From Opitutales bacterium (GTDB taxonomy: Bacteria > Verrucomicrobiota > Verrucomicrobiia > Opitutales > UBA953), in the NCBI GenBank assembly GCA_009691685.1, contig SIAU01000002.1:1-64000 (forward strand): a DNA stretch of 64,000 bases, read 5' to 3'. The notes below the pieces were generated by a model. That model did no database searches and had not been told where the DNA came from. It saw only the letters and a program-made list of their open reading frames with translations. Below, piece by piece: positions 25,221 to 58,604 of this stretch. Position 1 is the stretch's first letter, and every line of letters starts with the position of its first letter. The translations under genes were made by a program, and so were the position numbers.

Positions 25221-25260
25221 GGGGACAAGGGGACACGGTGACAAGTTGGCAAGGGGGAGT
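25221..25260 (+). repeat. Octamer-repeat array, element A left part
   Basis: Five contiguous 8-bp units: GGGGACAA, GGGGACAC, GGTGACAA, GTTGGCAA, GGGGGAGT. The consensus is GGKGACAM with a closing GGGG-A unit. It begins 8 bases after the double-ACT stop codon. The same unit grammar recurs at 25.3, 25.7, 52.0 and 57.7 kb. Confidence 0.85.
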
Positions 25261-25286
25261 TGCAAAAGACACTTAATTTAAATTAA

Positions 25287-25379
25287 GGGGACATGGGACG
25301 CGTGCGCTGCACGCGAGGGGACACGGGGACAAGGTGACACGTGGGCAAGGGGTAGTTGTGCAGGACGCATCGCGCACCT
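25287..25379 (+). repeat. Octamer-repeat element A right part with GC palindrome
   Basis: Starts GGGGACAT, then a core with the perfect hairpin CGCGTGC/GCACGCG (25299-25315, 3-base loop), then units GGGGACAC, GGGGACAA, GGTGACAC, GTGGGCAA and GGGGTAGT (25317-25356). It ends in a degenerate form of the second core (CGCATCGCGCACCTACC). The hairpin core is identical to that at 57.7 kb. Confidence 0.85.
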
Positions 25380-25567: not shown

Positions 25568-25658
25568 GGAGAGGTGGCTGAGTGGCCTAAAGCGCCCGTT
25601 TGCTAAATGGGTGTACCCCAAAAGGGTACCGTGAGTTCGAATCTCATCCTCTCCGCCA
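25568..25658 (+). tRNA. tRNA-Ser, anticodon GCU
   Basis: 91 bases with encoded CCA. Acceptor stem GGAGAGG/CCTCTCC, D-arm TGGCTGAGTGGCCTAAAG, anticodon loop TTGCTAA (anticodon GCT, reading AGC/AGU), a long class II variable arm GTACCC/GGGTAC, and T-loop TTCGAAT on a GTGAG/CTCAT stem. The long variable arm confirms serine. It is flanked on both sides by octamer-repeat elements. Confidence 0.97.
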
Positions 25659-25673
25659 CTTTTATCAAGTTGA

Positions 25674-25796
25674 GGGGACAAGTGGGCACGGTGACACGGT
25701 GACAAGGGGGAGATACAAAAGATCCAATGCAGTCGCGCCCTACCTAATTAAATCGAGGGGACAAGTGGGCACGTGGGCAAGGTGACAAGGGGAGAG
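25674..25796 (+). repeat. Octamer-repeat element B (two arrays in direct orientation)
   Basis: Array one (25674-25713): GGGGACAA, GTGGGCAC, GGTGACAC, GGTGACAA, GGGGGAGA. A 43-base spacer follows, holding a half core GCAGTCGCGCCCTACCT. Array two (25757-25796): GGGGACAA, GTGGGCAC, GTGGGCAA, GGTGACAA, GGGGAGAG. Unlike the 52.0 and 57.7 kb copies, both arrays point the same way, each preceded by a TTGA or TCGA. It starts 15 bases after the tRNA. Confidence 0.85.
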
Positions 25797-52003: not shown

Positions 52004-52099
52004 TTGAGGGGACACGTGGGACAGGGTAGGGGCGCGACTGCGTCGCGTCCTCGCATCTCCCCTTGTCACCGTGTCACCTTGCCCCCGTGTCCCCTCAAT
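52004..52099. repeat. Octamer-repeat element C, inverted-repeat form
   Basis: Left arm TTGA-GGGGACAC-GTGGGACA, core with hairpin CGCGAC/GTCGCG (52033-52047), and a right arm whose reverse complement reads GGGGACAC, GGGGGCAA, GGTGACAC, GGTGACAA, GGGGAGAT. The ends GTTGAGGGGACACG and CGTGTCCCCTCAAT are inverted. It fills the gap between the convergent proC and rhodanese genes almost exactly and could fold as a transcriptional barrier. Confidence 0.85.
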
Positions 52100-57074: not shown

Positions 57075-57674
57075 ATGATAGTTTCCCTTCGCGGTAAATT
57101 AATTGAAGCCACTGTGCTTCGCGTGGTGATTGAATCTGCCGGCGTGGGTTATGAAGTAAATATTCCTGTAACGACGGCCGAACGCCTACCTAAAGTGGGT
57201 TCAGAAATATTTTTATTAATCCATCATGCCTTTCGTGAAGATGGCCAAGCGCTCTATGGTTTCGCTGTTCCAGAGGAGCGTGATTTTTTCCGTCTACTCG
57301 TCGAAAAAGTTTCGGGGGTGGGTCCGAAATTAGCGCTCACGATTTTAAGTCGCCTTTCCTTGCCTGTATTGTGCGATGCGATTTCACGGGGTGACGTGGC
57401 GCTTTTATCTCAGTGTCCTGGTATTGGTAAAAAAACTGCTGAGCGTTTAGTCATCGAACTGCGCGATAAAGTAGGCGCTGGTTCCGGTACATCTTCAGTG
57501 GGTGCAAGTCTGCCCTCGGGTGTCCAACCTTCTGCGGTGTCCGATGCGGTCGCTGCCCTCATTGCTCTAGGTAATAAGGCCGTTGATGCCGATAAATCAG
57601 TGCGCGCTGCCGTACTTAAACTCGGCTCAGGCGCTACCGCAGATCAATTGGTGAAGGCTGCGTTGGGGCGGTAG
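57075..57674 (+). CDS. ruvA: Holliday junction branch migration protein RuvA
   Basis: 199 residues. Binds four-way junctions and loads RuvB. N-terminal OB-fold (MIVSLRGKLIEATVLRVVIE), two helix-hairpin-helix motifs (LVEKVSGVGPKLALTILSRL; LLSQCPGIGKKTAERLVIEL), a Ser/Gly-rich flexible linker, and the C-terminal RuvB-contacting domain (VSDAVAALIALGNKAVDADK). No ruvB or ruvC is in the window. An octamer-repeat element begins 4 bases after the stop. Confidence 0.96.
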   Translation: MIVSLRGKLIEATVLRVVIESAGVGYEVNIPVTTAERLPKVGSEIFLLIHHAFREDGQALYGFAVPEERDFFRLLVEKVSGVGPKLALTILSRLSLPVLCDAISRGDVALLSQCPGIGKKTAERLVIELRDKVGAGSGTSSVGASLPSGVQPSAVSDAVAALIALGNKAVDADKSVRAAVLKLGSGATADQLVKAALGR

Positions 57675-57678
57675 TAAT

Positions 57679-57857
57679 AATTGAGGGGACATGGGGGCAA
57701 GGGACGCGTGCGCTGCACGCGAGGGGACAAGCTGGCACGGTGACACGGGGACACGGGGAGATGCATTTACATTCTTAGGAAGGTTAGGGCGCGACTGCGT
57801 CGCGTCCATGCACTACCCCTTGCCAACTTGTCCCCTTGCCCACGTGTCCCCTCAATT
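57679..57857. repeat. Octamer-repeat element D, full inverted-repeat form
   Basis: Ends AATTGAGGGG and CCCCTCAATT are exact inverted repeats. Left to right: GGGGACAT, GGGGGCAA, the hairpin core CGCGTGC/GCACGCG (57705-57721), GGGGACAA, GCTGGCAC, GGTGACAC, GGGGACAC, GGGGAGAT. A 25-base spacer follows, then the second core GCGCGACTGCGTCGCG and an inverted array reading GGGGACAC, GTGGGCAA, GGGGACAA, GTTGGCAA, GGGGTAGT on the other strand. It contains every part seen in the other copies and fills the gap between convergent ruvA and dapB. Confidence 0.87.
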
Positions 57858-57860
57858 CGA

Positions 57861-58604
57861 TTACTTCAACCCTAACACATCTTCCATCGAATAGAGGCCG
57901 GCTGACTTGTCTTTAACCCAATGGGCGGCTCTGACAGCTCCACGTGCAAAGATTTCACGGTTCGCAGCTTTGTGCGTTAACTCAATGCGCTCACCTTCCG
58001 CAGCGAACATAACGGTGTGATCGCCTACGACGTCACCACCACGAATCGCATGAACTCCAATTTCATTCAGAGGGCGTTCACCGACTAAACCCTCGCGACC
58101 ATGCTTAAGGGCATCAGCCGCGAGCTTACGTTCTTCGAGTAAAATTTTGAGTAAGGTTTCAGCGGTTCCACTCGGTGCATCTTTTTTAAGACGGTGATGC
58201 ATCTCGGTGACCTCAATATCCCAGCGACCCGCTTGGCTTAACGCACGAGCGGCTTGACGAACTAAAGCGTTAAGAAGGGTAACACCGACGGAATAATTTC
58301 CAGCCCAAACCACCGGAATGCCTTTGATGGCTTCGGTGATTTGCTTTTTTTCTTCCGCGGTATGGCCAGTAGTTCCGATGATTAAAGGCTTTTTGTGTTC
58401 TGCACAAATTTTAGCTACAGCGAGAGTGACGGAGTGAAGTGAAAAATCGATAACTACATCGGCATTACCAATCGACTTCTTTAAATCGTCACCTTGATCG
58501 AGTCCGGCAAACACGTTGGCGCTTTCGCTGCTAGCAATCGCGGTGATGGCTTGGCCCATGCGACCTTTGGCACCATTCAATAAGATTTGGAGGGAGTGGC
58601 TCAT
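57861..58604 (-). CDS. dapB: 4-Hydroxy-tetrahydrodipicolinate reductase
   Basis: Second enzyme of the lysine/diaminopimelate branch. 247 residues. The Rossmann motif is LNGAKGRMGQAITAIAS, VIDFSLHS and IGTTGHTAEEKKQI hold the NAD(P)H site, and the catalytic/substrate motif is EMHHRLKKDAPSGTAETLL. AIRGGDVVGDHTVMFAAEGE follows. The ATG overlaps the dapA stop by 4 bases, giving a coupled dapA-dapB operon. Confidence 0.96.
   Translation of the reverse strand: MSHSLQILLNGAKGRMGQAITAIASSESANVFAGLDQGDDLKKSIGNADVVIDFSLHSVTLAVAKICAEHKKPLIIGTTGHTAEEKKQITEAIKGIPVVWAGNYSVGVTLLNALVRQAARALSQAGRWDIEVTEMHHRLKKDAPSGTAETLLKILLEERKLAADALKHGREGLVGERPLNEIGVHAIRGGDVVGDHTVMFAAEGERIELTHKAANREIFARGAVRAAHWVKDKSAGLYSMEDVLGLK

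Follow-up and report, generated by a model that had tools for sequence, protein, structure and literature searches.

A 179-bp sequence (57679-57857) lies inside the 186-bp gap that separates the stop codons of ruvA and dapB in the genome of an Opitutales bacterium. A preliminary description, made from the letters alone, had read this sequence as a dispersed intergenic element built from 8-nt units, with inverted ends and two GC palindromes, and had proposed a transcription barrier, a protein-binding array or a non-autonomous mobile element as its possible roles. The locus thus raises the question of what kind of element this is, how widely it occurs, and which of these roles the evidence favours. 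In the following, the window is the whole stretch of 64,000 nt that was analysed, and the source genome is the 1.33 Mb genome to which it belongs.

Architecture of the ruvA-dapB element

The phased units, the inverted ends and both palindromes were all found where they had been described, and so was the placement between two convergent genes (Table 1); dapB is adjoined by dapA, which was assigned by PF00701. From left to right, the modules are a 2-unit arm, a stem-loop (HP1), a 4-unit arm, a core with a second hairpin (HP2), and a 4-unit arm on the opposite strand. The left side of the element is composite, a 2-unit arm with a stem-loop to which a complete 4-unit arm is attached. The element is bounded by terminal inverted repeats, AATTGAGGGG at 57679-57688 and CCCCTCAATT at 57848-57857, its arms are 92% complementary over 25 nt, and it has no coding capacity. 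The terminal units are GGGGAGAT at 57755-57762 and GGGGTAGT on the minus strand. The tag of HP2 is degenerate in this copy (GTTAGGG at 57783) and intact, as GTAGGGGCGCGACTGCGTCGCG, in four other copies of the source genome. No known RNA family besides a tRNA was found in the window.

Table 1. Features of the ruvA-dapB element, its flanking genes and other elements of the window.
Feature	Position	Strand	Remark
ruvA	57075..57674	+	upstream gene; name from sequence recognition
Left outer end AATTGA	57679..57684		inverted copy at 57852-57857
2-unit truncated arm, GGGGACAT GGGGGCAA	57685..57700	+	
Stem-loop HP1, CGCGTGC-GCT-GCACGCG	57705..57721	+	stops 1 nt short of the complete arm
Complete 4-unit arm, GGGGACAA GCTGGCAC GGTGACAC GGGGACAC	57723..57754	+	
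65-bp core, GGGGAGATGC...GCACTACCCC	57755..57819		compared with two sister-species orthologous loci
Hairpin HP2, GGGCGCGAC-TGC-GTCGCGTCC	57787..57807		GTAG-REP-like
Complete 4-unit arm, GGGGACAC GTGGGCAA GGGGACAA GTTGGCAA	57820..57851	-	
Right outer end TCAATT	57852..57857		
dapB	57861..58604	-	convergent gene; name from sequence recognition
Two 4-unit arms, same direction	25221..25348	+	25221-25252 and 25317-25348; downstream of an open reading frame
Two four-unit arms, same direction	25674..25796	+	closely downstream of the tRNA gene 25568-25655
Second element	52004..52098		short inverted end, GTAG REP hairpin, minus-strand 4-unit arm

The family of 8-nt units to which this element belongs is referred to as family A. 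Among the other elements of the window, the second arm of the first same-direction pair (25317-25348) is preceded by HP1. Another repeat, about 110 nt long, was observed after tRNA genes with serine-type ends (L048:2140-2460, L042:5250-5420 and L288:12860-13100); it restores the tRNA 3' end (...TCTCTCTCCGCCA) and is followed by a family-A arm.

Distribution of the family

The element is indeed dispersed, as further copies occur across the source genome and in relatives from the same genus, with the 8-nt phase retained. The window contains 18 GGGGACANGGGGACA-like sites, compared with 0.22 in shuffled sequences, and a two-unit pattern gave 106 matches in the genome versus 2 for a reversed control pattern. 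About 20 places in the source genome carry the family, and no other non-coding arrays with an 8-nt period occur in the 946 of 1330 kb that were analysed. The elements bunch within a few kb, often close to contig ends (contigs C28, C54, C16 and C31 of the source genome); stronger matches are absent from long contigs, for example C32 (119 kb) and C4 (76 kb).

Genus-wide dispersal is established, since the family is present in 34 of the 36 congeners that were sampled; none of 20 genomes from other families of the order carries it. Two genomes, G018 and G031, are without arms. A scan of 85,462 prokaryote genomes (one genome per species) returned 108 stretches, nearly all of which are labelled Opitutae or Verrucomicrobia, including UBA953 and BS6/BS10, the latter being Lake Biwa bins. 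Taken together, the 108 stretches look like the same freshwater Opitutae. The few that are labelled otherwise (Akkermansia, Polynucleobacter) are taken to be mislabelled bins. A phage origin was rejected, as phages gave just one 22-bp match at chance level and viral contigs gave no match for the family.

Arms of exactly four units

What is conserved in family A is a single arm: (C/T)GA, with or without a stem-loop before it, exactly four units of 8 nt, and then GGGG. An A precedes the arm in 93%, and GGGG follows it in about 90%. Two linked types of unit, GGKGACA and GYKGGCA, make up the arms and appear in 66 orders among 140 distinct arms. Four units are present in 221 of 334 strict arrays, and only three arrays exceed this number. 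The source genome, in which loci were chosen without any pattern, has 40 arms: 29 with four units, five with three, six with two, and none above four. The loci of the relatives were fetched by a three-unit pattern, which biases the unit order and the lower counts, not the ceiling. The repeat is thus degenerate yet constrained, as had been described, in that the phase is kept and the number of units is capped at four.

A stem-loop that ends about 1 nt before the arm (stem score of at least 6) was found for 36% of the arms, compared with 0.7% of shuffled flanks. Because 77 distinct stem-loop sequences precede arms at this enriched frequency, it is the stem that is conserved and not its sequence; the stem of HP1, too, is maintained in other copies although its sequence varies. 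Within the arm, identical neighbouring units are avoided (8 seen versus about 18 expected). For one methyltransferase-like gene (L040:1505-2137), the longest reading frame begins within an arm, so that arms can supply start codons, false or real.

Unrelated dialects obey the same rule

Relatives of the genus bear arrays of like build whose sequences are unrelated to family A, among them GTTGRYCN and GAGGCYCN (8 nt) as well as GCGGTTR and GAGTATN (7 nt). GAGTATN arrays (dialect D) were found in 31 of 41 sampled genus genomes and, in an order-wide scan, in one of 132 genomes, which is also from the genus. Among the matches listed, 63 of 81 GAGTATN arrays have four units and three have five; the remaining dialects seldom go above four. 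Identical neighbours were seen 5 times against 39.5 expected in GAGTATN and 33 times against 55.4 in GCGGTTR (dialect C), which is the opposite of what tandem duplication would give. The four-unit rule is therefore established in several unrelated dialects, as are the non-identical neighbours. Dialects can be joined in a hybrid arm, as in L199 (GTTGATCA GTTGACCA GTTGGCCG GTTGACAA GGGGAGATGC), and intergenic gaps in relatives (L191, L192, L203 and others) are mosaics of many further repeats, such as GGAGACC, GGTGGCR and REPINs with CGCGACTGCGTCGCG hairpins.

The number four could mean that the arms are G-quadruplex repeats, which have four units because four G-tracts are needed and which act on DNA or transcript near gene ends. 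In Xanthomonas and Nostoc, the G-rich heptamers GGGAATC and GGGGA(C/T)T show the same preference for four units, which has been linked to G-quadruplexes, and the same sense position, no more than 50 bp past the stop codon (Rehm et al. 2015, PMC4692102). In line with this explanation, 164 of 167 family-A arms (arm plus trailing 4 nt) contain at least four GG tracts. Four GGG tracts, however, are present in just 55 of these arms, and none of 30 GAGTATN arrays has four GG tracts, despite the same four-unit rule and sense position at gene ends. Since these arrays would be unable to form a G-quadruplex and yet obey the rule, the G-quadruplex can hardly be the general explanation. In addition, GGTGGCA would keep the G-tracts and yet is rarer even than the tract-less GTTGACA; for this reason, the notion that every unit keeps a G-tract was also rejected as a full account of the coupling between positions 2 and 5. 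We therefore consider it unlikely that the arms are quadruplex repeats; a quadruplex role would be conceivable for family A alone.

Sense placement after stop codons

When the copies were mapped to gene ends, arms proved to be enriched directly after same-strand stop codons. Up to 30 nt after such a stop there are 117 family-A arms, compared with 10 in the mirror position, the G-rich strand being sense. The other dialects behave alike (9 versus 2 for B, 28 versus 5 for C, 13 versus 0 for D), which establishes the sense placement after stops. In the source genome, arms are located in 7 of 30 convergent gaps versus 7 of 195 others (p=7e-4). Inspection by eye of about 27 relatives indicated that, at nearly every ruvA or dapB end, an array stands about 15 nt or less from the stop, in a dialect that differs between species; where the array is lacking, there is a REP hairpin instead.

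A gene-end regulatory element would be placed in this way. The stem-loop and arm might set or protect transcript ends as part of the 3' UTR, or might halt antisense transcription through the C-rich strand. This reading gains from the sense position directly after stops in four dialects, from the conservation of the stem-loop while its sequence changes, and from the fact that the ruvA and dapB ends keep some array although dialects replace one another. Yet the source genome has just about 20 such places, and the same pattern is expected from an insertion preference for gene ends. Moreover, no intrinsic terminator was predicted at the ruvA-dapB site, and ordinary terminators occur in other convergent gaps of a relative. 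Pairing between facing arms, as a basis for structure or termination, was rejected as well, because the arms of one element match in 8.18 of 16, compared with 8.93 when shuffled. A regulatory role thus appears rather improbable, and the transcription barrier of the preliminary description finds no direct support.

Differences between sister species

Orthologous gaps were compared with those of two close species, G006 (about 88% nucleotide identity) and JAEMQU (about 90%). At ruvA-dapB, the left arm is shared by JAEMQU, whose flanks are orthologous on both sides but whose 65-bp core is inverted (score of 96 inverted versus 43.5 as is). G006 has the core in the orientation of the source genome, and an extra gene sits between two elements. 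The copy in the source genome looks like the left part of one G006-type element fused to the right part of the other. In a control, unrelated cores scored about 42-91 when the better of the two orientations was taken. The idea that cores invert recurrently, at several loci, was accordingly downgraded, as only the ruvA-dapB case exceeds this control.

At 52004-52098, the source genome has an element, which is reversed in JAEMQU, and in G006 a gene stands in its place. Genes next to arms were also present or absent at a pseudopilin gene and at a gene pair on contig C31 (G000/G006/JAEMQU trio). The inverted core at ruvA-dapB and the presence or absence of genes beside arms are thus established. 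Replacement and gene loss in orthologous gaps were seen in these comparisons; a clean empty site or a target duplication was not. On G006 contigs L285, L287 and L290, arms of mostly the same direction separate genes for a rhodopsin and a beta-carotene dioxygenase as well as toxin-antitoxin pairs (YoeB/PhdYefM, and an HTH antitoxin with an unclassified partner).

Same-direction arms that separate genes, toxin-antitoxin pairs included, and gene gain and loss beside arms would also fit attachment sites of an integron-like gene-cassette system. However, none of 41 genomes has an integron integrase above the TIGR02249 cut-off, the weak matches being Xer-like, and ordinary conserved genes have arms between them as well, which makes such a system very improbable. 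It is just as hard to believe that the arms are decayed simple slippage microsatellites, for although an 8-unit arm in G006 (L288:11219-11282), which resulted from duplication of the 16-nt pair GTGGGCAAGGTGACAC and is the sole large expansion seen, proves that slippage happens, the ceiling of four units is sharp and identical neighbours are strongly avoided, the reverse of slippage products. The same two features bear out the earlier statement that the repeat is unlike a microsatellite.

Search for a mobilising enzyme

The enzyme searches covered Y1 transposases, integron integrases, serine recombinases and reverse transcriptases. The Y1 transposase PF01797 is absent from the source genome (88% complete), from its nearest relative G006 and from the 99%-complete G019. 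Other relatives (L176, L177 and L171) have Y1-type transposase genes of up to about 330 codons, the ends of which bear GGGGTCAGGCCG-type repeats. A RAYT or TIRYT flanked by arms was rejected, as none of the Y1 genes examined in the genus has flanking arms, save for one arm about 1.1 kb away. Likewise rejected were a serine invertase (PF00239 in 0 of 41 genomes) and synthesis by a reverse transcriptase or a telomerase-like enzyme (RVT_1 in just one of 41 genomes). For 45 genes between arms, the 25 of 34 Pfam families that were listed include no transposase. The earlier proposal of a non-autonomous mobile element is plausible, but a partner enzyme was not found in these searches.

Discussion

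The statement that the element belongs to no named family is supported, the nearest counterparts being GTAG REPs and quadruplex repeats, each with differences. With the quadruplex repeats of Xanthomonas and Nostoc, the arms share intergenic 7-8-nt G-rich units, the preference for four units, the sense position close after stops and rarity between divergent genes. Those arrays, however, reach up to 26 near-identical units, whereas the arms of the genus have a ceiling of four and non-identical neighbours. Furthermore, only the latter come with a stem-loop, a REP core and a non-quadruplex dialect under the same rule.

GTAG REPs, which are abundant in Opitutus terrae (Verrucomicrobia), REPINs, and TIR families with the motif GGGGWSAS have been described along with their RAYT/TIRYT transposases by Di Nocera et al. 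(2013, PMC3733652). Our elements resemble GTAG REPs and REPINs in their GTAG-REP-like core hairpin, a short palindrome that has the GTAG tag at its foot, and in being proximal to gene ends and dimeric or clustered; GGGGACAC fits the TIR-family motif. In contrast to GTAG REPs, they have phased four-unit arms, the source genome is without a RAYT, and the longer Y1 genes examined in the genus have GGGGTCAG-type ends on their flanks instead of four-unit arms. A REPIN has two inverted REPs bounding a spacer, whereas here a single REP hairpin is located between two inverted arms. Like REPINs and MITEs, the elements are short, dispersed and gene-less, and they share with MITEs terminal inverted repeats without coding capacity. 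The TAACTGA direct repeats of Beggiatoaceae (MacGregor 2015, PMC4679880) are also short, dispersed, intergenic heptamer arrays. Yet they are exact, number 2-6 copies or as many as 43, stand for the most part immediately before a start codon, and lack inverted arms. The element class is therefore best filed among short dispersed intergenic repeats, with an unusual four-unit grammar.

We tentatively favour the reading that this is a non-autonomous, REPIN-like gene-end element of a genus-specific class, with a four-module recognition arm; it has a fair chance of being correct. Its basic piece would be the arm, in which (C/T)GA, preceded in some cases by a stem-loop, is followed by four units of 7-8 nt from a single dialect and by GGG(G). 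In a full element, two such arms in inverted orientation would enclose a REP-like hairpin core. The arm could then represent a four-module recognition site. Its reader would probably be a host protein, multimeric or modular, that recognises the site either in DNA or at the 3' end of a transcript. Copies may spread through a copying or transposition process. Once placed, the arms would offer short homologies, by which cores could flip and genes between same-direction arms could be lost or exchanged.

It is also quite possible, although we put this forward with some reserve, that the elements are defined by grammar rather than by sequence, i.e. by four units with one free base each, differing neighbours, a GGG close and a sense position at gene ends, and that the number four stems from a reader with four modules, be it protein or RNA, rather than from a G-quadruplex. 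If this is true, the four-unit bias in Xanthomonas and Nostoc needs to be re-examined. So far, the preference of G-rich repeats in bacteria for four units has been connected with the formation of G-quadruplexes, without a shown function, and a quadruplex-incapable dialect with the same count and position represents a natural test of this idea. For the organisms themselves, it is important that the elements stand at breakpoints of gene gain and loss between close lake bacteria, and they may help to explain the turnover of accessory genes in reduced genomes.
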